Assembly (NCBI GenBank): GCA_021773975.1
Contig: JAJFJN010000037.1
Location: 1 to 64,000 of the forward strand
Length of the DNA stretch: 64,000 nt
From: Gammaproteobacteria bacterium
GTDB taxonomy: Bacteria > Pseudomonadota > Gammaproteobacteria > Chromatiales > Chromatiaceae
Direction: 5' to 3'
Shown: positions 1 through 16,242 of the stretch, piece after piece
Layout of the letters: each line of letters begins with the position of its first letter
How positions within the stretch are numbered: the first letter of the stretch is position 1
The notes under the pieces: model-generated
Seen by the model: only the letters and a program-made list of their open reading frames with translations
Databases searched by the model: none
Told to the model about the DNA's origin: nothing
Position numbers and translations under genes: made by a program

Positions 1-141
1 TTTCAGGCCGTACTCAGTGATGGCAAAGGCAAGGTAAAACGTTTTACCACCCCCACCCGGCTCTATTTCGATAAAAACGGCCTGTTTTACGTGGTCGAGA
101 TGTTCGCCAACCGCATCAGTGTTTACCGTATAAAATCATGA
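1..141 (+). CDS. C-terminal end of an NHL-repeat-like protein (partial)
   Basis: An open frame enters from the left edge and stops at TGA 139-141. The last 46 residues include T-R-L-Y-F-D-K-N-G-L-F-Y-V-V-E and end N-R-I-S-V-Y-R-I-K-S. This has the pattern of an NHL or six-bladed propeller strand ('D..G.lYV.e..N.RI.vf'). Its stop overlaps the ATG of the multihaem cytochrome (ATGA), so the two are probably translationally coupled. NHL-type proteins are often found beside large extracellular c-type cytochromes. Only the tail is visible, so the family call is tentative. Confidence 0.5.
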   Translation, partial: FQAVLSDGKGKVKRFTTPTRLYFDKNGLFYVVEMFANRISVYRIKS

Positions 142-3100
142 CGCAGCTGCGATTGATTTGGCTTTGCTCTCTGTTGGCGGTGCTTCTTGCACCCACCATC
201 TCATGGTCGGCACCTGAAGGTGGCGGGAACTCCTCTAAAGAGTGTTCTATGTGTCACTTTCGCTGGATGGAGGATTTTCTTGAGGATAAAGGGCAGAACT
301 ATCTACTAGAGATCCCCGAAGAACGCGCCGTCTCAAAGGAGATGATGTGCTACAGCTGCCACGATGGTTCCATTGCCGACTCCCGTTTCCGTGTATGGGA
401 AACCAATAAACACAAGGCGGGGGTCGTGCCTTCTTTAAACGTCACCATCCCCGAAGAGTATCCATTAGATCTCGATGGCAAAATGCAGTGCGTCACCTGC
501 CACTCTGCACACGGTGTGGATACCCGCATCACCATGGATTCAGCCATATTCCTGCGTGAACCCAATATTGGCTCATCCATGTGCCAGAGATGTCACAAAG
601 GTAAAAATACAGGGCCAACAAAAGGCAGCCATCCCATTGATGTTGAATTTCAAGAGTTCCCTGACGAAATAATCCAATCTGGCGGAAAAAAAGGTGCGAA
701 TAACACGGTTATCTGCGAGTCCTGCCACGCTGCACATGGTAGTACTAACGATGATTTTCTGATTATCCCAAACAGTGAAGCATCCCTCTCCCAATCCATG
801 TTATGCGAGGCATGCCATGGTGTCACACCCGACCTGACAAGTGACAAAGCACTGCGCCGCCACTCCCACCCAGTGGATATGGAGCTACCCAAAGAGGCCG
901 ATCTACCTGAAACATGGGACAACGGCGAGAAGCCACATCTGGGACAAGGCAAGTACGTTAACTGCCGTACCTGCCACTCCCCACACAATGGCATTGATGA
1001 CAATCATCTATTGGTACAACAGGCAGGAGGAGACCCGCTCTGCCTCACCTGTCACACCTCAAAAGAGTCCATCTATTACACTCGACATGACATCAGTGAA
1101 CAATTTCCAGATGATGCAAATTCAGCCGGTGTAAAAACAGCGGATAAGGGGGCATGCAATGCCTGCCACTTTATGCACAAAGGACAAGGACCAAAGATGT
1201 GGGCAAGAGAGCCAATCAAAGGCTCAATTGATGAGATGTGCATAAGCTGTCACAACGAAAAAGGCACCGCAAAAGAGGCACTGATAGGGGATAAAACACA
1301 CCCTGTCGGGGGCACGCTCAACGATGCACCTGAATCCCTCCCTCTCTTTTCAGGAGACGGCAAAAAATCCAAATATGGCGAGGTAAGGTGCGCCACTTGT
1401 CATGATGTCCATCGCTGGAGTCCTACCTCCAACAATCCCGGCCACCGAGAAGTACCTGGGGATGGAAACAACAGCTTCTTACGCCGATCGGTTACCACAG
1501 GAAATCTTTGCCAAACATGCCATACAACTCAAGCAGCCATTGCTGACACCAAACATGACCTAAGACTGGCTGCACCTGATGAAAAGAACTTCAAGGACCA
1601 AAGCCTCAAGGAGACCGGCGTCTGCGGTGCCTGCCACACCCCACATAATGCCAACCGAGATAAGCTATGGGCCAGAGATACAGGTGCTGGAGTTGAGCTC
1701 ATTGAACGCACCTGTAACAGCTGCCATAAAAAAGGCGGACTAGCCGAAGATAAAACCACTGGCAAAGAGAGCCACCCCCTACAGCTGCACGTTGATAATA
1801 TGGATCCAGCTGCAAAAGATATCATACCGCTCTTCGCCAAAGGCGGGATTAAAAGCGCTGATGGTTTTGTCAGCTGCGCTTCCTGCCATAACGTCCATCA
1901 GTGGGACCCCTCAACCACAAAAGCCCCCGGAAATATGAAGGTAGAGGGTGATCGCATGAACAGCTTTCTGCGCCTGCCTAATGATGACTCTGCCAAACTC
2001 TGCTCCTCCTGCCACCAACAGAACATTAACATTGTAGGCACAGACCACGATCTAAGCATTACAGCGCCCAACGAACGCAACATGGAGCAACAAACAGTCG
2101 CTGAAGGCGGTGTCTGTAGTGCCTGCCACGTCGTGCACAATGCCTGGGGTAACGGCTTATGGAGCCGCAGTGTCGGGCTTGGCGAAAACCGCAATGAAGC
2201 ACGTTGCAGCGGCTGCCATTGGCGCAGAAAATCCGCTGCAAAAAAGACTCTGCGCGGCCCCAACCACCCTATGAACAAACGTGTGGATGAAGCAAAGGCA
2301 TCAATGCAGGGTGAAACCGCATCCTTCTACACACTTGACGACAACACCAAGGCTGGCTATATCTATGACAGTGAAGCCAAGGTTAAAACTGAATTCCCAC
2401 TGTTTGCACGGGACGGCTTCCGCACACCAAACGGCGATATCAGCTGCCCAACCTGCCATAATGTTCACGTCTGGAATCCTGAAAAAGCAGGCCCAGGGTC
2501 AGGCGAAAAGGATCAAGAGGGTGATGGCAGCAATAGCTTCCTAAGAAAATCCAATCTACCCAATTCACAGCTCTGCACAACATGCCACACACGGAAAGCC
2601 TTCGTCCAAGGCACCGATCATGACATGTCCATCGCTGCACCTGGGAGTAGAAACAGGCTTAAACAAACCGTTGCCCAAAGCGGCATGTGCAGTGCCTGTC
2701 ATCTACCTCACGGTGCACAAAAAGATGGCTACCAACTCTGGGGACGCAATCCAGGTAAAGGCAGCGAGCTCAAACAGGAGCGTCTATGCCTGGCCTGCCA
2801 TGCTGAAAATGAAGTCGGCGACAACAAAATTGTGGCTAATTTTATTCACCCAAGAGAAGTCATAGCTTCTGAAGCACGCAAGGTTGGTAGCAAACAGTAC
2901 GCCCCGCTTTTTGACAAAGATGGCAATAAATTACAGGCTGGCATCATTACCTGCTCAACCTGTCACGAACCACATATCTGGGAGCCTAATAAAGATAAAG
3001 CAGGACCGGGCAAGCGCACAGAAGGCACTAACAGAAACAGCTTTTTACGCTTTAAAAGCTCAAAGAATATCTGCCGTAATTGTCATGGAATAGACAGCCT

Positions 3101-3194
3101 ACAAAAGTTTAAATATTTTCATTCAGCCCGCTCAAGAAAAAACGGGATCAAAGAGTCTAGGAAATCAAGGCCCAAGGGACTCATTGGGCGATAA
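138..3194 (+). CDS. 24-haem secreted cytochrome c with four tetrahaem repeats
   Basis: This 1018-residue protein begins with a Sec-type signal peptide (residues 1 to about 24, ending S-W-S-A). I count 24 CXXCH haem-binding motifs, many in the paired spacing of the doubled-CXXCH cytochrome family. Eight motifs lie in the first 310 residues. The other 16 fall into four successive tetrahaem modules starting near residues 339, 495, 658 and 850. Each module has the order C-x-A-C-H, C-x-x-C-H, C-x-T/S-C-H-x-V/P-H-x-W, then 'NSFLR' and a final CXXCH. It should be periplasmic or extracellular and act as an electron conduit; the redox partner is unknown. It overlaps the upstream NHL-like gene by 4 bases. 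The C-terminus is Lys/Arg-rich with no membrane anchor. Haem number and export are strongly supported; the pathway is inferred. Confidence 0.9.
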   Translation: MTQLRLIWLCSLLAVLLAPTISWSAPEGGGNSSKECSMCHFRWMEDFLEDKGQNYLLEIPEERAVSKEMMCYSCHDGSIADSRFRVWETNKHKAGVVPSLNVTIPEEYPLDLDGKMQCVTCHSAHGVDTRITMDSAIFLREPNIGSSMCQRCHKGKNTGPTKGSHPIDVEFQEFPDEIIQSGGKKGANNTVICESCHAAHGSTNDDFLIIPNSEASLSQSMLCEACHGVTPDLTSDKALRRHSHPVDMELPKEADLPETWDNGEKPHLGQGKYVNCRTCHSPHNGIDDNHLLVQQAGGDPLCLTCHTSKESIYYTRHDISEQFPDDANSAGVKTADKGACNACHFMHKGQGPKMWAREPIKGSIDEMCISCHNEKGTAKEALIGDKTHPVGGTLNDAPESLPLFSGDGKKSKYGEVRCATCHDVHRWSPTSNNPGHREVPGDGNNSFLRRSVTTGNLCQTCHTTQAAIADTKHDLRLAAPDEKNFKDQSLKETGVCGACHTPHNANRDKLWARDTGAGVELIERTCNSCHKKGGLAEDKTTGKESHPLQLHVDNMDPAAKDIIPLFAKGGIKSADGFVSCASCHNVHQWDPSTTKAPGNMKVEGDRMNSFLRLPNDDSAKLCSSCHQQNINIVGTDHDLSITAPNERNMEQQTVAEGGVCSACHVVHNAWGNGLWSRSVGLGENRNEARCSGCHWRRKSAAKKTLRGPNHPMNKRVDEAKASMQGETASFYTLDDNTKAGYIYDSEAKVKTEFPLFARDGFRTPNGDISCPTCHNVHVWNPEKAGPGSGEKDQEGDGSNSFLRKSNLPNSQLCTTCHTRKAFVQGTDHDMSIAAPGSRNRLKQTVAQSGMCSACHLPHGAQKDGYQLWGRNPGKGSELKQERLCLACHAENEVGDNKIVANFIHPREVIASEARKVGSKQYAPLFDKDGNKLQAGIITCSTCHEPHIWEPNKDKAGPGKRTEGTNRNSFLRFKSSKNICRNCHGIDSLQKFKYFHSARSRKNGIKESRKSRPKGLIGR

Positions 3195-3250
3195 AGGTTT
3201 TACATCAAAAACACAGACTGAATTTACTACTGCTCAGCAACGGAATAGCC

Positions 3251-3715
3251 ATGAAGCCAATAACCATTGTATTAATCACACTCTTATCTCTCTTTTTTAT
3301 CGCTACAGAAGCCCAGGCGACCAGTAATAATAAAGAGAAGCAACGGATTGTCACTCACATCCCAAAGGCAGCCAAAGAGCATGACATTGCCCTTATCACT
3401 AAGTTTATGGATCTCATCCTCAAAGGCGACGAATCTGGCGCCCGCTATCTGGCAACGGATGGCGGTGATGATGACACGGGAGCACATACCAACTACTCCA
3501 GCGAAAAAATTTCCCGACTCAATATATTTAATAACCCAAAAGCAAAAATTGATGCCATCTACTACTATCAAGACATCATTACAGAGTTCAAACACCTGCG
3601 TTACTACTTTGTGATTTATGAGAATGGCCAGCACCGATACCCTCAAGTCATGAAGATTGAAATGGTTAACTACGATGACCTCTTTTACCTAAACCGCTTT
3701 TGGGCACCACGATAG
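3251..3715 (+). CDS. small secreted protein of unknown function
   Basis: The 154-residue product has a clear signal peptide (M-K-P-I-T-I-V-L then a hydrophobic core, cleavage after about A-Q-A). The mature part is polar and rich in Tyr and Asp, with 'YYYQDIITEFKHLRYYFVIYENG' type spacing in the second half. I recognise no domain. It starts 56 bp after the 24-haem cytochrome on the same strand with no strong terminator between them, so it may be an accessory of that operon. It has no cysteine, so it is not itself a haem protein. Confidence 0.7.
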   Translation: MKPITIVLITLLSLFFIATEAQATSNNKEKQRIVTHIPKAAKEHDIALITKFMDLILKGDESGARYLATDGGDDDTGAHTNYSSEKISRLNIFNNPKAKIDAIYYYQDIITEFKHLRYYFVIYENGQHRYPQVMKIEMVNYDDLFYLNRFWAPR

Positions 3716-3793
3716 GTATACCCTATTCAACCACCACAAAAAGCATATTTTTTAGGAGCCGTTATACTTTCTGGATGACGATAGGGATGAACA

Positions 3794-4270
3794 ATGACTA
3801 AAAAAGTGCCGACCTCCACCATCCTGGTGCCAGTGGATTTCTCATCTCACTCAAAAGAGGCGCTACTATTTGCCGCTGAGCTAGCAGCTCGTCTCTCAGC
3901 GCCCTTAATAATACTCCACGTAATACACGACCCTGGTGAATCACCTGGTTATTACTCCCAAAAAGACCCCGAACACCCTCATAAAATTGCAGATGTTGCA
4001 GCCGAAATGATGGCAGAATTCATCGCCAGAATAACCAAAGAAAACCCAGAGTTGAATAGTATCCCACAGGCAAAAATCAAACTGGTCAGCGGATTGCCAG
4101 TCACCCGAATATTAGAGATGGCAGAATATTACAATCCCCAGATGGTTGTAATGGGCAGCAAAGGACGAACTGGGCTGGCTCACCTGCTACTCGGTTCCAA
4201 GGCCGAACAAGTGGTACGTCTCTGCCCCTCCCCAGTTACCATCATCAAGATGACAGAAAGCAAAGGCTAA
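3794..4270 (+). CDS. universal stress protein (UspA family)
   Basis: This is a single 158-residue Usp domain. It starts S-T-I-L-V-P-V-D-F-S, the family's first strand and Asp. It ends with the ATP-binding signature G-x2-G-x9-G-S (G-S-K-G-R-T-G-L-A-H-L-L-L-G-S) followed by V-V-R-L-C-P-S-P-V-T-I-I-K. The motif marks the nucleotide-binding subclass. It is expected to be a cytoplasmic stress protein, probably dimeric. It ends 4 bp before the Na/Pi symporter gene, so the two are very likely cotranscribed. The ligand and physiological trigger are not readable from sequence. Confidence 0.92.
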   Translation: MTKKVPTSTILVPVDFSSHSKEALLFAAELAARLSAPLIILHVIHDPGESPGYYSQKDPEHPHKIADVAAEMMAEFIARITKENPELNSIPQAKIKLVSGLPVTRILEMAEYYNPQMVVMGSKGRTGLAHLLLGSKAEQVVRLCPSPVTIIKMTESKG

Positions 4271-4274
4271 CTGC

Positions 4275-5948
4275 ATGTCTTGGGGAGCAATGGGCATTCA
4301 GTTACTTGGAGGGCTGGCTCTTTTTCTATTTGGCATGGAGCAGATGGCCTCATCCCTAAAAGCAGTGGCAGGAAAGGGAATGAAGGGCATTCTAGCCCGA
4401 CTCACAGCCAACCGCTTTATGGGTGCTATAACCGGGGCATTTATTACTGCAGTCATCCAGTCATCCTCTGTTACTACAATACTGATAGTGGGATTTATTA
4501 GTGCAGGGCTAATCTCTTTTTCACAATCAATCTGCATCATTATGGGCGCCAATATAGGCACCACCATCACCGCCCAGATTATCGCCTTCAAGATTACCGA
4601 TGCCTCCATGCTCATGATAGCCATCGGCTTTAGCATGCTATTTTTCATAAAGCAGGAGAAGATCAAACTCTATGGTGGCATATTAATGGGACTGGGCATG
4701 GTCTTTTTTGGCATGACGATTATGAGTCAAGCCATGGAGCCACTTCGCAACTACCCTCCCTTTCTCAACCTCATGATGCAGATGAGCAGCCCACTAATTA
4801 GCATCCTGATTGCCGCTGCTTTTACTGGCTTGGTTCAATCCTCATCTGCCACTACGGGCATCATTATTGTCATGGCAACCCAGGGGTTTATCTCCCTACC
4901 CACAGGCATTGCACTTGCCTTTGGTGCCAATGTTGGCACCTGTATCACTGCCTTCCTGGCCTCCATAGGCAAGCCTCGTGAAGCAGTTCGTGCCGCTGTT
5001 GTGCACATTCTCTTTAATATCTTTGGCGTACTATTATGGCTTGGCTTTATCGACCAGCTGGCACAATTTGTCAGCTGGTTCTCTCCCAGCTATGAGATGC
5101 TCACTGGTGCTGCCAAAATGGCAGCAGAAACACCACGTCAAATTGCTAACGCCCACACACTATTCAATATTGCCAACACCCTAATATTTATTGGTTTCAC
5201 CAGCCAATTCGCGCGTTTGGTGGAGAGGCTCATACCCGATAGCCCCATGGAAGAGAGCATATCCACAGCACCTAAATTTCTTAATGAAGAGCTCATCAGC
5301 ACCCCATCTCTAGCACTCGACCGCACCCGCCTTGAGATCGGACAAATGGGTGAGCAAGTGAAAACAATGCTAGCGCAGGTCATGCCTACCATCCTCTCTG
5401 GCAGCCGCGTCTCACTCAATCAAATTGCTGCAATGGATGATGCCGTAGACATCACCTATAGAAACGTTATTACTTACCTTGGGCAGATTAGTAAGCAATC
5501 ACTAACCAATGATCAGAACCATGAATTTACAGCCTTCATGGGGGCGGCCAATAATCTAGAATATATTGGTGACATCATTGAGACTGACCTGGTAGAACTA
5601 GGCCACAAACGCCTGGATGAAGATGTAACCATCAGCCAAAACACCCAGGAGGTGCTCATCAACCTGCACGAGACCGTCTCAAAAGCAGTAGACCTGGCCA
5701 TTCAGGCAGCAATAGAGAACGATCATGAAGCCGCTCAGCAAGTCATAACCATGAAGGCCAGCATCAACCGTCAAGCTGATGCCGCTGCACTCTACGAAGC
5801 TAAACGACTCGTCGCTGAAGAGCCTAAACGCCTCCAGGCCTACACCATCGAAATGGATGCGATCGAGAAGCTAAAACGTATCTACTATTTTGCTAAACGT
5901 ATCGCCAAAACCAGCACACTTGACAAAAAACCTCAGCATTGTGACTAA
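4275..5948 (+). CDS. Na+/phosphate symporter with C-terminal PhoU-like domain (NptA/YjbB type)
   Basis: The 557-residue membrane protein has the inverted-repeat Na/Pi cotransporter fold. The paired QSSS signatures are both present ('VIQSSSVTT' in the first repeat and 'LVQSSSATTG' in the second), each followed by further hydrophobic helices. Residues from about 340 onward form a soluble helical PhoU-like region. It should move inorganic phosphate across the inner membrane with Na+; in YjbB-type proteins export has been proposed, so direction is uncertain. It follows uspA by 4 bp and is followed after 73 bp by phoB, so it sits in a phosphate-response setting. No Pho box was seen before uspA. 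Confidence 0.9.
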   Translation: MSWGAMGIQLLGGLALFLFGMEQMASSLKAVAGKGMKGILARLTANRFMGAITGAFITAVIQSSSVTTILIVGFISAGLISFSQSICIIMGANIGTTITAQIIAFKITDASMLMIAIGFSMLFFIKQEKIKLYGGILMGLGMVFFGMTIMSQAMEPLRNYPPFLNLMMQMSSPLISILIAAAFTGLVQSSSATTGIIIVMATQGFISLPTGIALAFGANVGTCITAFLASIGKPREAVRAAVVHILFNIFGVLLWLGFIDQLAQFVSWFSPSYEMLTGAAKMAAETPRQIANAHTLFNIANTLIFIGFTSQFARLVERLIPDSPMEESISTAPKFLNEELISTPSLALDRTRLEIGQMGEQVKTMLAQVMPTILSGSRVSLNQIAAMDDAVDITYRNVITYLGQISKQSLTNDQNHEFTAFMGAANNLEYIGDIIETDLVELGHKRLDEDVTISQNTQEVLINLHETVSKAVDLAIQAAIENDHEAAQQVITMKASINRQADAAALYEAKRLVAEEPKRLQAYTIEMDAIEKLKRIYYFAKRIAKTSTLDKKPQHCD

Positions 5949-6021: not shown

Positions 6022-6714
6022 ATGACCACCCCGACTATTCTTATCGTCGAAGATGAATCTGCTGTACGGCAGATGTTACGCTTTGCACTCCAACAGCAAG
6101 ACCTCAATATAATAGAAGCTGTAGAGACGATCAAAGCCGAACAACTGATCTCTCAAAACCCACCTGACCTAATCCTACTGGACTGGATGCTGCCAGGAAA
6201 AAGCGGTATTGAATTCGCTCGCCAACTCAAGCGCAACCCTGACACACAGAATATCCCCATTATCATGCTCACCGCACGAGGTGAAGAGAATGACAAGGTA
6301 CAAGGCTTAGAAAGCGGCGCAGATGACTACATCACCAAACCCTTCTCAACACGCGAATTGATAGCCCGTATCCGTGTCATTCTACGTCGTACTACACCCA
6401 TCACGAATGACGAAAAAATTGAGATGGAAGGGCTATCACTAGATACTGCCACCCACCGCGTGCTGGCTAATAAAAAACCAATCGAACTGGGGCCTACAGA
6501 ATTTCGCCTACTCCACTTCTTCATGACCCACACCGAGCGTGTCTACAATCGCACGCAACTACTGGATCAAGTCTGGGGTAGCAACGTCTACATTGAAGAG
6601 CGCACCGTCGATGTCCACATCCGCCGCCTACGCAAAATACTAGAACCCAGCAAGCACGACTCACTATTACAAACTGTGCGTGGCGCTGGCTACCGTTTTT
6701 CGAGTGGAGAGTAG
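6022..6714 (+). CDS. phoB: phosphate regulon response regulator PhoB
   Basis: A 230-residue OmpR-family regulator. The receiver domain (1-120) has the acidic pair E10-D11, phosphoacceptor D54 in '[10 protein letters not shown]', and the Thr/Lys switch residues in 'MLTARGEE' and 'YITKPFS'. The winged-helix output domain (about 130-228) contains '[14 protein letters not shown]' and '[14 protein letters not shown]', close to PhoB. When phosphorylated it should bind Pho boxes such as those at 5951, 8213 and 10650. No phoR sensor-kinase gene follows: the next gene is an oppositely oriented helicase. The partner kinase must therefore be encoded elsewhere. The family is certain; the PhoB identity is supported by sequence and by the surrounding phosphate genes. 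Confidence 0.9.
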
Positions 6715-8212: not shown

Positions 8213-8259
8213 CTTTAACAAAACTGTCATTAAACTGAAACCAGCCGGTCATCTATTAG
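8213..8259 (+). promoter_or_regulatory. putative triple Pho box and -10 upstream of the PilZ-like gene
   Basis: Three half-sites in 11-bp register are visible: CTTTAAC (8213-8219), CTGTCAT (8224-8230) and CTGAAAC (8235-8241). A TATTAG -10-like element lies at 8254-8259, the same distance from the box as at the phoB promoter. Orientation matches the gene at 8305. Confidence 0.62.
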
Positions 8260-8304: not shown

Positions 8305-8760
8305 GTGAATCTACGCAACAAACAACCACACAAAACGAGCATCTTAGTACAAGTAAATTACGGGAGGCGGCGCTGCTTTCATACACAAGCCAACTCTATA
8401 TCAGCAAACGGTATGTTTCTCTCAACACGCACGCTCAGCCTACCCATTAACAGCAACATAAGTCTAAAATTTTCTATCGACAACAGCTGTTATGAAATAC
8501 CTGCTATCGTTACAGGAGACTGCTCTGATGGAATCTATGTCGGTTTCCACAGACTTCAACCCGATGCCTATGACTCTTTTTGCAAGCAAAATAACCCACA
8601 AGAGCATACTTCACCCCCTGCATTCTCTCCCGAGTCCGTGATAACTGTCCCTAAGTGGAAAAAACAAAACAGGCAGGAACCACTGAATAGCAACAAAAAA
8701 ATCCCAATCTATTCATTAAAAAGTTCAACGGGCCAGCACCTCAATTTAATAGATCGCTAG
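8305..8760 (+). CDS. PilZ-like domain protein (putative c-di-GMP receptor)
   Basis: A 151-residue soluble protein starting at GTG 8305, with a GGAG ribosome site about 10 bp upstream. Residues about 10-95 look like a PilZ domain. There is an arginine cluster R21-R22-R23, then S-I-S-A-N-G-M-F-L matching the [DN]xSxxG motif with Ser in the first position, then alternating strands ending 'IYVGFHRL'. The Arg cluster lies closer to SxSxxG than the usual RxxxR spacing, so c-di-GMP binding is plausible but not assured. The last 55 residues are Pro/Lys/Asn-rich and probably disordered. The upstream Pho boxes suggest induction under phosphate limitation. Confidence 0.65.
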   Translation: MNLRNKQPHKTSILVQVNYGRRRCFHTQANSISANGMFLSTRTLSLPINSNISLKFSIDNSCYEIPAIVTGDCSDGIYVGFHRLQPDAYDSFCKQNNPQEHTSPPAFSPESVITVPKWKKQNRQEPLNSNKKIPIYSLKSSTGQHLNLIDR

Positions 8761-9974: not shown

Positions 9975-10577
9975 GTGACGGCAATCAATATGCATAATAA
10001 AGCCCGCTATGCCCATACCTTCTTTACCCTGCTATTTGCTGGGCTTTTATTTCCAATAGCTATTGTTAACGCCGGGCCACCATCTTCTGTTCCTTATGTA
10101 CCTTGGATAGTTTCTTCACCTTTTGAGCCTGAAGCCTGGTCTTTTGAAGCGTGCAAAAGCTGTCATTATGACTATGCAAATCTAACACCCTTAAAAACAT
10201 CAAACCCCAATAGACACCATGTTTTAGTGGGAACAAAGATCAAAACGAAGGCAGATTGGAATACCACAGGTGAGTGGCCATACCCCACCGCCCCCAATTA
10301 TTATAATGATGAAGACGGCCTGTATGACTGCCTAACTTGCCATGTCATCACCAAGAGCTCTTTAGGCTTTATAGATGTAACAGCCCCAAGAGACTGCATC
10401 GGCTGTCACGAACTGACTACAGTTGCAAATAATGTACCTGGAAATCGCCATCACGGCACTGAGACCGCAGTGAATGGACAATGCGTCGTTTGCCATTGCA
10501 GGATGCCTGAACCCCACGTTCAAATAATGCAGGGAGGGCCGTTTAGCCCATGCAGCCTCTATTTATCTGGGCAATAA
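9975..10577 (+). CDS. small secreted tetrahaem cytochrome c
   Basis: The product is about 200 residues and has four CXXCH motifs (C-K-S-C-H, C-L-T-C-H, C-I-G-C-H, C-V-V-C-H). A hydrophobic signal segment (about residues 15-35) ends near N-A-G-P. Extra conserved-looking His pairs (N-R-H-H twice) could be distal haem ligands. It should be a periplasmic electron carrier. The listed start is GTG 9975; ATG 9990 would shorten it by five residues, and neither has a strong ribosome site, so the start is uncertain. It is monocistronic, ending in a perfect hairpin at 10584. I could not match it to a named cytochrome family. Confidence 0.8.
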   Translation: MTAINMHNKARYAHTFFTLLFAGLLFPIAIVNAGPPSSVPYVPWIVSSPFEPEAWSFEACKSCHYDYANLTPLKTSNPNRHHVLVGTKIKTKADWNTTGEWPYPTAPNYYNDEDGLYDCLTCHVITKSSLGFIDVTAPRDCIGCHELTTVANNVPGNRHHGTETAVNGQCVVCHCRMPEPHVQIMQGGPFSPCSLYLSGQ

Positions 10578-10649: not shown

Positions 10650-10689
10650 CTGTAACAAAACTGTAATATTTCTGTCATTTTCACGTCAT
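10650..10689 (+). promoter_or_regulatory. tandem Pho boxes upstream of pstS
   Basis: Four half-sites lie in exact 11-bp register: CTGTAAC (10650), CTGTAAT (10661), CTGTCAT (10672) and ACGTCAT (10683), separated by A/T-rich 4-bp spacers. This equals two overlapping Pho boxes and is the clearest operator in the window. It predicts strong PhoB activation of the pst operon under phosphate starvation. Confidence 0.85.
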
Positions 10690-10779: not shown

Positions 10780-11649
10780 ATGAAATCAAAATTGCTTATC
10801 GCAGCTATCATTGCAACCAGCACACTTATTACCCTCAATGCTGAGGCTCGTACCCTAATTCAAAATAAGGGTTCCGATACCTTAGTAAACGTCGCCCAGG
10901 CTTGGGCAGAAAAATACCGTGATGCGAACCCTGAAGTGGCAGTGGCTGTTTCTGGTGGTGGCTCTGGCACAGGTATCGCAGCCATGATCAATGGCACTGT
11001 CGATATCGCCAATGCCAGCCGCAAGATGAAAAAGAAAGAGCTAAAGTCAGCTAAAAAACAGGGTCAAAATCCCGTAGAGCATGTCGTAGGATATGACGCT
11101 TTAGCTGTCTACCTTCACTCTGATAATCCAGCAAAGTCTCTTACCATTGCTCAACTTGCTGATATCTATGGTCGTAAGGGAAAAGCCAAAAAATGGACTG
11201 ATCTCGGCCTTAATGTCCCTGGTTGTAAGGGACAAAAAATTATTGTTGTCAGTCGCCAAAACAACTCCGGCACCTATGTGTACTTCAAAAAGGCCGTGCT
11301 GGGTAAGAAAGGCAAATACCGCATGGGCACACTGGACATGCACGGCTCCAAAGATGTTGTCGATCTGGTTGAGAATACCCCTTGCGCCATTGGTTACAGC
11401 GGTTTGGCTTATGCCACAGATCACGTCAAACTGGCCTGTATCTCAAGTAATGGTGCAGCCTGTGTTAGCCCCAGCGTAGCAACGGCAAGTGATGGCAGCT
11501 ATCCTGTTGCCCGCCCGCTTTTTATGTACACCAATGGTGAGCCTAAGGGTGCCATCAAAGGCTATCTGGATTGGATTAACAGCGATATCGGCCAGTGCAT
11601 TATCTTGAATAAAGGCTATGCCCCAATCAAGAAGGTAAGCTGTAAATAA
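10780..11649 (+). CDS. pstS: periplasmic phosphate-binding protein PstS
   Basis: A 289-residue substrate-binding protein with a signal peptide (M-K-S-K-L-L-I-A-A..., cleavage near A-E-A). The mature start 'QNKGSDTLVNVAQAWAEKY' and the 'SGGGSGTGIAAMINGTVDIANASR' region carry the Ser/Gly/Asp contacts typical of PstS-type phosphate binding. 'NSGTYVYFKK' and 'PCAIGYSGLAYA' match the family. It feeds phosphate to PstC-PstA. It is preceded by tandem Pho boxes and is the first gene of the operon. A large hairpin lies between it and phoU, which may allow more PstS than transporter to be made. Confidence 0.93.
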   Translation: MKSKLLIAAIIATSTLITLNAEARTLIQNKGSDTLVNVAQAWAEKYRDANPEVAVAVSGGGSGTGIAAMINGTVDIANASRKMKKKELKSAKKQGQNPVEHVVGYDALAVYLHSDNPAKSLTIAQLADIYGRKGKAKKWTDLGLNVPGCKGQKIIVVSRQNNSGTYVYFKKAVLGKKGKYRMGTLDMHGSKDVVDLVENTPCAIGYSGLAYATDHVKLACISSNGAACVSPSVATASDGSYPVARPLFMYTNGEPKGAIKGYLDWINSDIGQCIILNKGYAPIKKVSCK

Positions 11650-11762: not shown

Positions 11763-12848
11763 ATGAGCCATTACGAACAACGTCTGGAACAGGATCTTAA
11801 ACAAATCCGAGAACAGGTGGCTGAAGTGGCCGAGCGAGTAGAGGTTGGGCTAAAAGATGCAATGCATGCACTGTTATCAGGCAACAAAAAACTGGCCTAC
11901 GCCACCATTCTAGGCGATCTACCTATCAATCGACGGGTACGTCGAATTGACCAGTTGTGTCACAGCTTTATCGCACTACATCTACCCAGCGCGGGGCATC
12001 TAAGGCTGATCTCATCCATTATTCGCACCAATATTGAGTTGGAACGCATTGGCGATTATGCCGTAACGATCTGCCGTGAAGCGGTGCAGATGTCACAGCC
12101 ACCGCAAGAGCTGATTGCAGATAAGTTGGGACTCATATCTGAAGAGTCTCGCCACATGCTCTCACAATCCATCAGCGCCCTAAATGAAGGGAATGCAGAG
12201 GCTGCAAAGGCAACCAAAGGGATGGCGGCACAGATTGATCACATCTTTAGCACCGCCTTTGCTGATCTGACATCAGAAAAGAGCAAACTTGATCTTAAAG
12301 ATCTCATGCGGCTCTTTAATATCTTTCATCGGTTGGAACGGGTTGCCGCACAAGCCAAAAATATCTGCGAAGAGACTATTTTTGCAGCAACCGGTGAAAC
12401 CAAAGCACCCAAGGTTTATCGCATCCTATTCCTTGATGAGGATAACAGCGGCCTGAGCCAGATGGCTGAAGCCATCACTCATCGCAATTTCCCCAACAGT
12501 GGTCACTACAGCAGTGCCGGGCGCTATGCCAGCACAGAACTTAACCCTGTAGTCACTGAATTCATGCAAGGTCATGGCTTCGACCTGAGTGAGTCTCATC
12601 CCAAACAGCTAGATATGACCCCCAATGAACTGGGTGAGCTACACGTCATCATTAGCCTGCAAGGCGCAGTCAAAAACTATATTCCAGAGATCCCCTTCCA
12701 CACCGTTGCGATGGAGTGGGATATTGGCAGCGTACCCACAGGTCTGACCCCAGAGCAGACCAACCAGCAGCAAGAAGCGATCTATCGTGAGATTGCCGTG
12801 CATGTACAAGATCTCATGCAGACACTGCGTGGTAGAGGAGCCTCATAA
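11763..12848 (+). CDS. phoU: PhoU fused to a catalytically dead LMW-phosphatase/ArsC-like domain
   Basis: The 361-residue protein has two parts. Residues 1-210 are PhoU: the first repeat has the E/D metal motif I-E-L-E-R-I-G-D-Y-A (91-100). The second repeat has L-E-R-V-A-A-Q-A-K-N-I, where Ala replaces the usual Asp. Residues about 217-355 align with low-molecular-weight phosphatase/arsenate reductase: Y-R-I-L-F-L, then N-S-G-L-S-Q-M-A-E-A, S-A-G-R, L-N-P-V-V and a typical last helix. The catalytic C-x5-R loop is changed: D225 stands where Cys belongs and L231 where Arg belongs. The late Asp-Pro acid motif is also missing. It therefore probably senses or binds rather than hydrolyses. It lies between pstS and pstC and should restrain PhoR/PhoB signalling and Pst activity. 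Confidence 0.85.
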   Translation: MSHYEQRLEQDLKQIREQVAEVAERVEVGLKDAMHALLSGNKKLAYATILGDLPINRRVRRIDQLCHSFIALHLPSAGHLRLISSIIRTNIELERIGDYAVTICREAVQMSQPPQELIADKLGLISEESRHMLSQSISALNEGNAEAAKATKGMAAQIDHIFSTAFADLTSEKSKLDLKDLMRLFNIFHRLERVAAQAKNICEETIFAATGETKAPKVYRILFLDEDNSGLSQMAEAITHRNFPNSGHYSSAGRYASTELNPVVTEFMQGHGFDLSESHPKQLDMTPNELGELHVIISLQGAVKNYIPEIPFHTVAMEWDIGSVPTGLTPEQTNQQQEAIYREIAVHVQDLMQTLRGRGAS

Positions 12849-12849
12849 G

Positions 12850-13782
12850 ATGCTCGCTCCTTCAAATCTAAGCTCAGGTTGTGATCAGGCATTTGATCAA
12901 CGCAACCTGGACTGGTACATCGATAAGGCCGTTCAAGTAGTGGTCTTTATGGGGGGTATCTCGGCCATCATCTTCATTGTTGGCATCTTTCTCTTTATCA
13001 CCAAAGAGGGGATGGGGTTCCTGATTGATACACTCGATTTACAAGAGTTTTTTGGCTCTCCCTACTGGGAACCCAGCGACGAAGACGCCCCCGAATATGG
13101 CATTCTCGCCCTGATGGCAGGCACCGCCAGTGTCACCGGCCTGGCCATGTTGATTGCTATCCCCTTCTCACTGGGAACCGCCATCTACATCGCCGAATTT
13201 GCCACCGGCAAAACCCGCGAATGGCTAAAAATCCTGGTGGAACTACTGGCCGCCATCCCATCTGTTGTCTGGGGCTTTATTGGCCTGACCATCATGAATC
13301 CACTGATCATCGAGCTGTTCGATGTGCCAGTGGGACTGACCGTACTCAATGCCGGAATCATCTTGGGATTGATGGCCGCCCCCATCATGACCTCTATTGC
13401 AGAAGATGCCCTCAAAGCCGTACCCGACCGCTACCGTGAGGCCGCTGAAGCCATGGGAGCCACCCGCTGGCAGGTGGTCTTCAAGACGGTGTTGCCTGCT
13501 GCCAAAAACGGGCTGCTGGGCGCAATTCTGCTCGGTGTTGGCCGCGGCTTTGGCGAGACCATGGCTGTGCTGATGGCTACCGGCCATGCCGTCAACATCC
13601 CTGGCAGTGTATTCGATTCAGTACGCGCACTGACTGCCACCATCGCCGCTGAACTGGGCGAAACAGCGGTTGGGTCAGACCATTATCAGGTGCTATTCAC
13701 CATTGGCATCTTCCTCTTCCTGATTACCTTTCTGATCAACCTGACAGCCGACCTCATCGTGCGTGGCATTAGGAAAAGCTAA
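12850..13782 (+). CDS. pstC: phosphate ABC transporter permease PstC
   Basis: A 310-residue inner-membrane permease with about six hydrophobic segments and the binding-protein-dependent transport signature E-A-A-E-A-M-G-A-T-R-W-Q-V-V-F near residue 200, which docks to the ATPase. The start at ATG 12850 (M-L-A-P-S-N-L) is preferred over an upstream in-frame ATG at 12787, which would overlap phoU by 62 bp. The gene begins one base after the phoU stop and its own stop overlaps the pstA start, so translation is coupled. Together with PstA it forms the membrane channel. Confidence 0.93.
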   Translation: MLAPSNLSSGCDQAFDQRNLDWYIDKAVQVVVFMGGISAIIFIVGIFLFITKEGMGFLIDTLDLQEFFGSPYWEPSDEDAPEYGILALMAGTASVTGLAMLIAIPFSLGTAIYIAEFATGKTREWLKILVELLAAIPSVVWGFIGLTIMNPLIIELFDVPVGLTVLNAGIILGLMAAPIMTSIAEDALKAVPDRYREAAEAMGATRWQVVFKTVLPAAKNGLLGAILLGVGRGFGETMAVLMATGHAVNIPGSVFDSVRALTATIAAELGETAVGSDHYQVLFTIGIFLFLITFLINLTADLIVRGIRKS

Positions 13783-14663
13783 TGAATAACCAAATGTTTG
13801 CAGCAACCCAACTTAATCAAAAAAACCAGCGTACCGAAAAACTGGTACAGCTCCTTTTCATCCTAATGGCTAGCCTGTTGATTCTTCCAGTGCTGGTGAT
13901 CCTGGCCACACTGGTCGTTAAAGGTGGTTCAATCCTCTCAATTGACTTTCTCTTTACCGACCCCACCAATGGCATGACCGAAGGTGGCATCTTCCCTGCT
14001 CTACTGGGAACCATCTGGCTGGTCGCTGTGGCACTGATAATCTCTGTACCCCTGGGCATCGCTGCCGCCATCTACCTCAGTGAATATGCACCAGACAACT
14101 GGTTTACCCGACTGATCAATCTAGCCATCATCAACCTGGCAGGTGTACCCTCCATCGTGCATGCCCTGTTTGGCCTAGGGGCCTTTGTAGTCTTTTTTGG
14201 ATTTGGCACCAGCATCCTCTCTGCCAGCCTCACATTGGCTATCATGACACTACCGGTGGTGATCGTCTCTACCCGTGAAGCACTACAGGCTGTACCCCAC
14301 TCCTTTCGCGAGGCCTGCTGGAATATGGGCGCAACCCGCTGGCAGACCATTCGCCGCGTCGTGCTGCCCAATGCTGTCAGCGGTATTTTGACCGGCATTA
14401 TTTTGGAGGTCTCCCGCACCGCAGGTGAAACCGCCCCCATCATGTTTACCGGTGCTGTCTTTTTTAGCCCCTTTCTACCGCAGGGCATCATGGATCAAAC
14501 CATGGCCATGTCGCTGCACCTGTTTGTGGTCTCCACCCAAGTACCAGGCGTTCCAGAGAATCTACCCTACGGTGTTGCCTTGGTACTGATTGGTATGGTG
14601 CTGCTGATGAACAGCGTCTCCATCGCCTTTCGCATGCACCTGCGAGGTAAAAAGAAATGGTAA
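13782..14663 (+). CDS. pstA: phosphate ABC transporter permease PstA
   Basis: A 293-residue permease with about six transmembrane helices. The N-terminal soluble stretch is followed by 'LLFILMASLLILPVLVIL', and the EAA loop reads E-A-C-W-N-M-G-A-T-R-W-Q-T-I. The ATG shares a base with the pstC stop (TAATG) and its stop lies inside the first codons of the first pstB gene, so the operon is tightly packed. It pairs with PstC. Nothing in the sequence looks degenerate. Confidence 0.93.
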   Translation: MNNQMFAATQLNQKNQRTEKLVQLLFILMASLLILPVLVILATLVVKGGSILSIDFLFTDPTNGMTEGGIFPALLGTIWLVAVALIISVPLGIAAAIYLSEYAPDNWFTRLINLAIINLAGVPSIVHALFGLGAFVVFFGFGTSILSASLTLAIMTLPVVIVSTREALQAVPHSFREACWNMGATRWQTIRRVVLPNAVSGILTGIILEVSRTAGETAPIMFTGAVFFSPFLPQGIMDQTMAMSLHLFVVSTQVPGVPENLPYGVALVLIGMVLLMNSVSIAFRMHLRGKKKW

Positions 14664-15427
14664 CGGAAGCAAGCCCCATCAAACTTGAGATTAAGGATTT
14701 AGCCGTCAGCTATGGCGGCCAAACCGCCATCAGCGGTGTCAACCTGAGCATCCGCGAGCATGAGATCTTTGGCATCATCGGCCCCGCCAATGCAGGCAAG
14801 ACCTCATTTCTGAAGGCCATCAATCGCATGGATATGTTTGATACCAACATGCAGGTTGAGGGCAACGTGCTGTTTAACGGCCAGGATGTGCGCAAATGGC
14901 GCAATGTCTATGCCCTGCGCTCTCGTATTGGGGTGGTCTTTCCACTACCCGTTGGGCTGCCGATGTCGGTCTACGACAATGTGGCACTCTCACCTCAGCT
15001 ACGCGGCATTAAAGAGAAGGCAGAGCTGGATGTTATCGTTGAACGATGCCTCACCCGCGCTGCCCTGTGGGATGAGGTAAAAGATCGGCTGGACACGCTT
15101 GGCAGTCTGCTCTCTGGCGGACAACAGCAACGTCTCACCATTGCCCGCGCCCTCTCACAGGAGCCAGAGCTACTGATACTGGATGAGTTCTCTATCGCCG
15201 TCGACCCCGTCACCACCATGCGTATTGAGGATGTACTCAAAGAGCTAAAGAGTGAGATGACCATCATTCTGGTCACCAACCTGGTTCAACAGGCTCGACG
15301 ACTGGCTGACCGCACCGCCTTCTTTTTAGATGGTGAATGTGTGGAGATTGCTGAGACCGAAGCGCTGTTTACCCGTCAGGCCAGTGACTCGCGTACCCGT
15401 GATTATGTAGAAGGGAGATTTGGGTAA
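14657..15427 (+). CDS. pstB: PstB-type ATPase with degenerate Q-loop, D-loop and H-loop (first of two)
   Basis: This 256-residue ABC ATPase is PstB-like throughout. Walker A is intact (G-P-A-N-A-G-K-T-S, 42-50), the signature is canonical (L-S-G-G-Q, 152-156) and Walker B ends D176-E177. Three key sites are altered. The Q-loop Gln is P96 ('VVFPLP' for the usual 'MVFQKP'). The D-loop S-A-L-D is I-A-V-D (180-183). The H-loop His is N208 ('VTNLVQQ' for 'VTHNMQQ'). It should bind ATP but hydrolyse poorly on its own side. It overlaps pstA and is followed 26 bp later by a second PstB-like gene whose defects are the mirror image, so a heterodimer is likely. Confidence 0.88.
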   Translation: MVTEASPIKLEIKDLAVSYGGQTAISGVNLSIREHEIFGIIGPANAGKTSFLKAINRMDMFDTNMQVEGNVLFNGQDVRKWRNVYALRSRIGVVFPLPVGLPMSVYDNVALSPQLRGIKEKAELDVIVERCLTRAALWDEVKDRLDTLGSLLSGGQQQRLTIARALSQEPELLILDEFSIAVDPVTTMRIEDVLKELKSEMTIILVTNLVQQARRLADRTAFFLDGECVEIAETEALFTRQASDSRTRDYVEGRFG

Positions 15428-15453
15428 GCAACCGCTCCCATACACAAAAAATC

Positions 15454-16242
15454 ATGAATATAGCTTCCAAAGAAAAACCCGTAAAACTTGCCATCCGTGC
15501 CAAGCAGTTGAACCTCTGGTACGGCACATTTCAGGCGCTATTTGATGTTGATCTAAACATCAAAAAAGGGATGATCACCTCTCTCATTGGCCCCTCTGGT
15601 TGCGGCAAATCCACCTTTCTGCGCAGTATCAATCGCATCAATGAACGGCTGGGTTATGTGCGTATCGATGGCAGCGTGGAGGTGTTTGACCAAAATATCT
15701 ATGCCCCAGAGGTAGAGCTGGTTCAACTGCGTAAACAGGTTGGGATGGTATTCCAGCGCCCCAATCCACTGCCCGTCTCAATTCGAGAAAACATCCTGTT
15801 TGGCCACAAGATTCACAACAAAAAGAGCGGCAACCGCCAACAGCAGGACGAGATTGTCGAACAGGCGCTGCAACAGGTACTGTTATGGGATAAGGTCAAA
15901 GATCGGCTGCATCACAAGGCGACCAGTCTCTCACTGGAAGAGCAGCAGAAGCTCTGCATCGCCCGCCTGCTGCCCGTCAAACCCCGCATCCTGCTGATGG
16001 ATGAACCCTGCTCTGCCCTCGACCCTAAGGGCACCGAAGCAGTAGAAGAGCTGATCTGGGAGCTACGAGGCAAATACAGCATTCTCATCGTTACTCACAA
16101 CATGGCTCAAGCACGCCGTGCCAGCGAAGAGTGCATCTTCATGCTCATGGGCAAAGTGGTGGAACACACACCCACCAATCAAATGTTTGTTACCCCAGCA
16201 CAGCAGGAAACCGCTGATTATATTGAGGGACGCTATGGATAG
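15454..16242 (+). CDS. pstB: PstB-type ATPase with degenerate ABC signature (second of two)
   Basis: A 262-residue PstB-like ATPase. Walker A G-P-S-G-C-G-K-S-T (46-54), the Q-loop Gln Q101 in 'MVFQRPNP', Walker B D183-E184, D-loop S-A-L-D and H-loop H215 in 'VTHNMAQ' are all canonical. The ABC signature is not: the expected L-S-G-G-Q reads L-S-L-E-E (159-163). In an ABC dimer this subunit's Walker A, Walker B and His would face the intact signature of the first ATPase, giving one complete catalytic site and one defective site. It is the last gene of the pst operon, and the next gene starts 542 bp downstream. A homodimer of this protein would have no good signature. Confidence 0.88.
   Translation: MNIASKEKPVKLAIRAKQLNLWYGTFQALFDVDLNIKKGMITSLIGPSGCGKSTFLRSINRINERLGYVRIDGSVEVFDQNIYAPEVELVQLRKQVGMVFQRPNPLPVSIRENILFGHKIHNKKSGNRQQQDEIVEQALQQVLLWDKVKDRLHHKATSLSLEEQQKLCIARLLPVKPRILLMDEPCSALDPKGTEAVEELIWELRGKYSILIVTHNMAQARRASEECIFMLMGKVVEHTPTNQMFVTPAQQETADYIEGRYG

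Follow-up and report, generated by a model that had tools for sequence, protein, structure and literature searches.

Why should a PhoU protein encoded within a phosphate importer operon carry the fold of an arsenate reductase without its catalytic residues? This question is raised by an open reading frame, here named phoUL, in a stretch of 64,000 nucleotides from a gammaproteobacterial contig assigned to the Chromatiaceae (JAJFJN010000037.1), hereafter called the window. A first-pass annotation, made from the sequence alone, had proposed that the dead domain keeps an oxyanion pocket for binding. The features on which the present analysis is based are collected in Table 1.

Profile matches and structure prediction agreed on the composition of the protein. 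Pfam recognised PhoU in two stretches (84.4 bits versus a cut-off of 23.5) and scored LMWPc at residues 221-309 slightly below its cut-off (21.7 versus 23.2 bits). The best NCBIfam match to the second half was arsC_pI258_fam (33.9 bits, residues 221-348), whose cut-off is far higher (174.3), and the equivalog cut-off of phoU_full was missed (126.9 versus 130.25 bits). The AlphaFold2 model, built from a 56-row alignment, had a mean pLDDT of 94.0 and a pTM of 0.83. By VIA-align, its residues 5-212 corresponded to P. aeruginosa PhoU (4q25, Z 30.0) and its residues 217-354 to the ArsC of pI258 (1jf8, Z 19.8, rmsd 1.6). Two PhoU domains with the PhoU fold are followed by a C-terminal domain with the ArsC/LMW-PTP fold in the predicted model, as the first-pass annotation had described. 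Chains of T. brucei mitoribosome assembly intermediates also matched this domain (7pua_FW, Z 18.9); HAD or receiver folds did not appear among the 50 matches listed per structure listing, which is not evidence of their absence. No C-x5-R loop is present, and alignment to the solved ArsC 3t38 bore out the earlier placing of D225 and L231 at the sites of the catalytic Cys and Arg. Nor does any Asp-Pro follow W319 in the window protein, which lacks the general acid as already noted. The E(D)xxxD metal motif does not occur in both PhoU repeats of this protein. PhoUL is almost certainly a PhoU joined to a dead ArsC fold.

Relatives were collected by a scan of an 84,980-species genome collection with six peptide patterns, which returned 101 loci, the best 80 of the 101 being kept. 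According to their record titles, they came from Gammaproteobacteria, Candidatus Accumulibacter, Acidobacteriota, Planctomycetota, Nitrospirales, Anaerolineae, Gemmatimonadaceae, Myxococcota, Rhodothermia, Thermodesulfobacteriota and Limisphaerales; some of these labels may be wrong, since nearly all records are metagenome-assembled. Profile searches found a PhoUL match at E <= 1e-50 in 23 of 398 genomes of the window's phylum, and a match in 21 of 246 genomes of the phylum of a Planctomycetota-titled locus. The pseudo-ArsC domain is kept in about nine phyla, or ten if Verrucomicrobiota are counted, and outside the genus PhoUL is mostly 38-55% identical to that of the window. Spread by plasmids was also considered, and PhoUL had no match at E 1e-20 in 72,556 plasmid records. 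Pattern scan and profile searches together gave a main-clade set of 126 rows, 123 of them distinct. One locus broken by a stop (L128) was omitted, and four others, with an early stop (L037), a contig edge (L056), a 320-aa frame (L082) or a sequence gap (L114), were used for residue counts and left out of alignment A1. The patterns included QAKNICEE and one ending at W319, and none contained D225. The conservation of QAKNICEE in 81/81 rows is thus partly a product of selection, this motif having been a search pattern, and Q197 drops to 99 in the wider 126-row set; W319 was still invariant among the rows found by profile.

Within the domain, Asp225 is among the best conserved residues. Asp occupies this position in 119 of the 123 distinct rows, Gly in three and Glu in one, and Cys in none; the three rows with Gly have Asp at the next residue. 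Among the 134 ranked domain columns it stands sixth and is the only charged residue within the top 17. Together with P311-F312 and W319, its conservation is far above that of most domain columns, many of which are strongly variable. The conservation check suggested by the first-pass annotation for both replacements thus held for the Asp and broke down for the Leu, which is found in 51/123 rows and is not a conserved feature since its position ranks only 87th. The Arg expected there is missing in 117/123 distinct rows and kept in six. Asp-Pro letters occur soon after W319 in seven of 123 rows, not all at the right place, and a single main-clade row keeps both Arg and Asp-Pro. Because of these six rows, and of the one with both, the loss of the pocket is not complete everywhere. 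In the PhoU half, E94 and D98 of the first repeat (E-xxx-D) are intact in 123/123. The second-repeat metal-ligand Asp, reported earlier as lost, is indeed replaced by A196 in the window, but it is missing in 55/123 rows and its loss is not a family trait, Asp being the residue at position 196 in the other 68. A recent mutation or a sequencing error at position 225 was considered and rejected, Asp225 being common to nearly all distinct rows.

Table 1. Features of the phoUL locus, with positions in the window
Feature	Position	Strand	Remarks
Tandem Pho box upstream of pstS	10650-10689	+	four CTGTMAT-like half-sites, 11-bp spacing
pstS (phosphate-binding protein)	10780-11649	+	TIGR02136 238.2 bits, cut-off 206.6
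phoUL	11763-12848	+	PhoU fused to inactive ArsC-fold domain, 361 aa, ATG start
PhoU domain pair, residues 1-212	11763-12398	+	two Pfam PhoU stretches; 4q25 Z 30.0
A196 codon, place of second-repeat metal-ligand Asp	12348-12350	+	D 68, H 25, N 19, A 10, G 1 of 123
Pseudo-ArsC domain, residues 217-356	12411-12830	+	1jf8 Z 19.8, rmsd 1.6, 129 aligned; 1jl3 to residue 356
D225 codon, place of catalytic Cys	12435-12437	+	alignment to ArsC 3t38
L231 codon, place of P-loop Arg, not conserved	12453-12455	+	L 51, R 6 of 123; rank 87 of 134 columns
W319 codon, invariant Trp preceding the lost Asp-Pro loop	12717-12719	+	W 123/123
pstC	12850-13782	+	TIGR02138 272.1 bits, cut-off 196.45; ATG 12850 preferred over GTG 12787
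pstA	13782-14663	+	TIGR00974 267.7 bits, cut-off 193.45
pstB1	14657-15427	+	LSGGQ intact, H-loop His replaced by Asn208, DEF for DEP
pstB2	15454-16242	+	H-loop His intact; signature LSGGQ replaced by LSLEE at 15928-15942

The setting of the gene in a pst operon, part of the first description, agreed with the Pfam and NCBIfam assignments of its neighbours. The order pstS-phoUL-pstC-pstA-pstB1-pstB2 is near-invariant: at loci with enough contig, pstS was found upstream in 72/73, and downstream pstC in 75/77, pstA in 70/71, pstB1 in 64/64 and pstB2 in 54/54. At one of the loci without pstC (L114), the PhoUL frame passes through a sequence gap into pstC. The other misses all belong to L088, where no pst gene flanks phoUL over the roughly 7 kb before it and the 2.4 kb after it. 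PstC, PstA and the PstBs are mostly 60-90% identical to those of the window across phyla, far more alike than PhoUL. Before pstS, the tandem array comprises three overlapping matches within 40 bp to the E. coli-type Pho box consensus, the best with 1 mismatch in 14. It lies about 90 bp before the gene, and the window scores 13/14 (shuffle mean 8.6). Over the whole window such matches were not above chance (10 versus 7.5 expected, with 24 of 100 shuffles reaching 10), and the evidence at this site consists of the clustering and the one-mismatch core. The tandem box suggests that the window operon is under PhoB control. Nine of 74 upstream regions scored at least 11 of 14 for the E. coli-type box, 0.9 being expected from mononucleotide shuffles, and six of these nine belong to the window and its closest relatives.

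Other genes of the window were also inspected. A Na/Pi symporter with a C-terminal PhoU domain (4275-5948) is encoded about 4 kb before the pst operon and is directly followed by a PhoB-type regulator gene (6022-6714); none of the four open reading frames of at least 150 aa in positions 1-4300 looked PhoR-like. A weak Pho-box-like array of three half-sites, with 3 mismatches per pair, occurs at 8213-8241, about 64 bp before the open reading frame at 8305. By eye, many CxxCH haem motifs were seen in a 1018-aa protein, a multihaem cytochrome (138-3194), and a shorter CxxCH protein of multihaem type is encoded at 9975-10577.

The two ATPase genes that close the operon have lost complementary motifs. 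In PstB1, the H-loop His is replaced by Asn and DEP by DEF while LSGGQ is intact, each in 67/67 sequences. In PstB2, the GG of the signature is replaced by LE in 64/64 (63 LSLE and one LQLE), and the H-loop His is present in all 63 sequences covering that site. A second count gave the same result, with His to Asn in 26/26 PstB1 and GG to LE in 26/26 PstB2. Ten additional PstB2s read LSLEE, six before M or R and four before Q. Neither change was found in the canonical PstB control, formed by the best 30 of 40 sequences above the cut-off among relatives and by three located beside the intact fusions described below; LSGGQ and the H-loop His were intact in 33/33, without exception. The TIGR00972 cut-off (343.2 bits) was missed by both PstB1 (284.5) and PstB2 (330.4), the canonical PstB of the same genome scoring 407.6. 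PstB1 and PstB2 each formed one clade that includes the Verrucomicrobiota counterparts, with a support of 100 in a quick tree. LSGGQ and the H-loop His do not occur together in either subunit, and the pair has the features of two nucleotide-binding domains with complementary motif loss. As the defects are complementary, only one of the two ATP sites of a PstB1-PstB2 dimer would be normal: if the two are paired, the Walker motifs of PstB2 and the LSGGQ of PstB1 would form the complete site and the other would be degenerate. Such a heterodimer with one degenerate site is, from these motifs, the probable arrangement. The motif losses at 14657-16242, kept across phyla, are arguably more surprising than the PhoU fusion itself; the first-pass annotation of phoUL had made no mention of them.

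The asymmetric pair and PhoUL tend to occur together. Two adjacent PstBs with sub-cut-off scores in the PstB1 and PstB2 ranges were found in 13 of 52 relatives, assigned by score and position, with motifs read in some of them; the same 13 genomes are those with a full-length PhoUL among the 55 searched. In one further genome, G010, which is 69% complete, a PstB2-like gene stands by itself. Of the 13, nine, that of the window included, also have a canonical PstB above the cut-off, and in the window genome a separate canonical pstSCAB-phoU set is located on another contig (C58, 1-11000, locus L162). The other four (G016, G017, G019 and G025) have no PstB above the canonical cut-off, and their only PhoU-like protein at E <= 1e-5 was the fusion, although distant PhoUs could escape this threshold. 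The exact PstB2 signature pattern was found in nine of the 398 genomes of the phylum, seven of these being among the 23 with PhoUL. The other 16 PhoUL genomes gave no exact match; six full operons among them were checked and all have M or R where the pattern needs Q, and for G383 the atypical second copy described below was the one examined. The two remaining exact-signature genomes are G582, in which the match reads LTLEE, and G430, which has two asymmetric pst operons (L255 and L256) without PhoUL; the ATPase asymmetry thus does not need PhoUL. Two PhoB-like regulators are encoded downstream of one of these two operons. A converse case is found in G383, where, at 6444-9077 of L263, a second PhoUL is followed by a PstC-like gene and by a PstB-like gene with DDP for DEP and LTDEE for LSGGQ, neither PstA nor PstS being found in the 13 kb examined. 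Since this copy lies beside decayed PstB-like genes and no PstA or PstS turned up, PhoUL may have a role without an active pump too, and the locus is perhaps a sensor-only Pst remnant. Genes nearby look like Pit transporters by eye.

The origin of the fusion was approached through further PhoU-ArsC proteins. In four full-length Verrucomicrobiota relatives (L116, L125, L126 and L127), the Cys position is occupied by D, D, E and D, respectively, both Arg and Asp-Pro are kept in three of the four, and phoUL precedes pstS in all four. They form one clade with the main family in a careful PhoU-domain tree of 40 rows (support 100/99). L116 comes from genome G055, which is titled Limisphaerales; among 288 genomes of the phylum to which G055 belongs, PhoU-ArsC fusions with an intact C-x5-R loop and Asp-Pro numbered three (L129, L130 and L131). 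These are 28-30% identical to L116 and end ordinary pstSCAB-phoU operons with one normal PstB (wider loci L158, L159 and L160). The first-pass annotation had taken homologues with an intact loop as the sign of a recent mutation in the window; those found branch among canonical PhoUs in the PhoU-domain trees, outside the clade of the window protein, and do not support that view. Their ArsC domains group with standalone ArsC (support 94) in a quick domain tree, in which the joint branch of the main and Verrucomicrobiota forms had a support of only 91 and from which five of 30 standalone loci, having no usable protein, were dropped. The 92-row PhoU tree was likewise a quick one and warns of long branches meeting at L129 and L130. 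For the careful tree, one row in three of the main clade and one in two of the canonical PhoUs were used, and four long or odd rows were removed, the window genome's own canonical PhoU among them; L131 was still a long branch. A single clade of all PhoU-ArsC fusions was not rejected (p-AU 0.076), and for this reason separate fusion events are not claimed as proven. The simplest reading of the sequences, the trees being unrooted, is that the Cys would have been lost first, before the Arg and the Asp-Pro acid. It is possible that the three intact proteins are active PhoU-ArsC enzymes.

Several known systems share part of these features. Canonical PhoU (E. coli, P. aeruginosa 4q25) has the same two repeats, fold, first-repeat E-xxx-D and pst operon setting, but PhoUL carries the extra pseudo-ArsC domain, has often lost the second-repeat Asp, and is encoded between pstS and pstC whereas canonical phoU comes last. 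Thioredoxin-type ArsC (pI258, B. subtilis) has the same fold as the PhoUL domain (rmsd 1.6 over 129 residues); the latter lacks the Cys, the Arg and the Asp-Pro acid, is fused to PhoU, and has pst genes as operon partners. Complementary loss of ATPase motifs is best known from exporters. In descriptions of the heterodimeric ABC exporters BmrCD and PatAB, one consensus site is combined with one degenerate site, as would be the case here if the subunits pair, but the present system imports phosphate and has its membrane and ATPase parts on separate subunits. Adjacent non-identical pstB genes within one pst operon are described for Enterococcus faecalis, whose PstB1 and PstB2 have non-overlapping roles and, in the passages devoted to them, each keep all four ATPase motifs (PMC12096839), whereas here each has lost one in a complementary manner. 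The kinetoplastid ArsC-like proteins, as portrayed in passages of PMC2175518, also lack the catalytic Cys; unlike in PhoUL, it is replaced by Gly, and Arg and Asp are kept. Accessory regulators such as PhoU, PitR and NptA-PhoU are, like PhoUL, tied to one importer family in the sections of a survey that treat them (PMC13170248). As defined there, the PhoU set of that survey admitted a protein if it had two PhoU domains and lacked any further known Pfam domain, which left recognised PhoU fusions outside. Within the titles and passages of the open-access literature searched, no description of a PhoU-dead-ArsC fusion or of an asymmetric PstB pair was found.

A domain that has lost its catalytic residues and is nevertheless conserved probably has a role other than catalysis. 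This part of the initial proposal is upheld, the catalytic residues being missing and Asp225 ranking near the top of the domain. As to the nature of this role, the reading that we prefer, and to which we give an even chance as a whole, takes PhoUL as the PhoU dedicated to an asymmetric Pst importer and its dead ArsC domain as a surface for docking or regulation. That PhoUL acts on the PstB1-PstB2 importer is quite likely; the docking role of the dead domain is plausible, if a little doubtful. Passages of PMC5775613 report that in E. coli both PstB and PhoR are binding partners of PhoU and that the signal is set by PstB mutants locked in a single state. By extension from E. coli, PhoUL should bind the PstB1-PstB2 pair. 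The sequence of events would begin with an ArsC fold, fused to PhoU, that lost its catalytic Cys early in favour of Asp; the Arg and the Asp-Pro acid would have been lost later in most lineages, a folded non-catalytic module being kept. PstB1 and PstB2 would pair, with their normal and degenerate ATP sites, and PhoUL would attach to the resulting asymmetric pair in the way that E. coli PhoU attaches to PstB, and relay or throttle the transport state of the importer. As the two faces of the pair are unlike, the added domain could restrict PhoUL to a single binding orientation, and the pseudo-ArsC domain may be the surface by which PhoUL docks or is oriented on one face of the pump, or on PhoR. 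The side chain of Asp225 may occupy the former oxyanion site and so mimic a ligand from within, which would explain its strong conservation without a ligand. A more specific version can be put forward only tentatively: in a widespread importer, the PstB1-PstB2 dimer would be obligate, with one dead ATP site, and the dead domain, with Asp225 as a permanent anion mimic, would serve PhoUL to read the asymmetric pump or to lock it in one orientation.

Other explanations of the conserved Asp are conceivable. It may be a functional acid, either in a cation site or as a phospho-acceptor as in receiver or HAD domains, which would make PhoUL a new kind of switch. Its near-invariance and its position at the end of strand 219-225 of the AlphaFold2 model are in keeping with this, and the loop is acidic on average and hence better suited to a metal than to an anion; however, the loop has no second conserved acidic residue, positions 226 and 227 being variable across PhoUL rows, and we regard such a function as improbable.

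The oxyanion pocket of the first-pass annotation would make the dead domain a sensor that still binds phosphate or arsenate and informs PhoU directly. The ArsC fold is intact in the model, N228 is kept in 103/123 rows and S251 in 109/122, and Arg with Asp-Pro persists in most Verrucomicrobiota forms and one main-clade form. Against this, the Arg has gone from nearly all rows, an acidic residue stands in the place of the thiolate, and the net charge of the eight loop residues 225-232 averages -1.73 across the 123 rows and is -3 in the window protein, compared with +1 in the three intact fusions. The claim of a retained pocket was therefore not borne out, and a direct sensor of this kind seems a poor prospect; judging from the residues present, most PhoUL members are unlikely to have a site for phosphate or arsenate, and the few that keep the Arg could differ. 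Nothing observed favours the discrimination of arsenate from phosphate that the annotation had offered as an alternative. Finally, a passive stabilising or dimerising appendage without a specific signal would agree with the many variable columns of the domain and with the asymmetric importer of G430, which does without PhoUL, but it is hardly probable given the conservation of Asp225, W319 and P311-F312 far above most domain columns and the retention of the domain across so many phyla.

If PhoUL is indeed the dedicated PhoU of an asymmetric importer, the system bears on a long-standing open question, namely how PhoU senses the state of the Pst importer. The complementary loss of ATPase motifs is met here in an importer, and a system in which unlike ATPase faces are combined with a dead-domain PhoU would offer a handle on which face PhoU binds and on what the added domain contributes.
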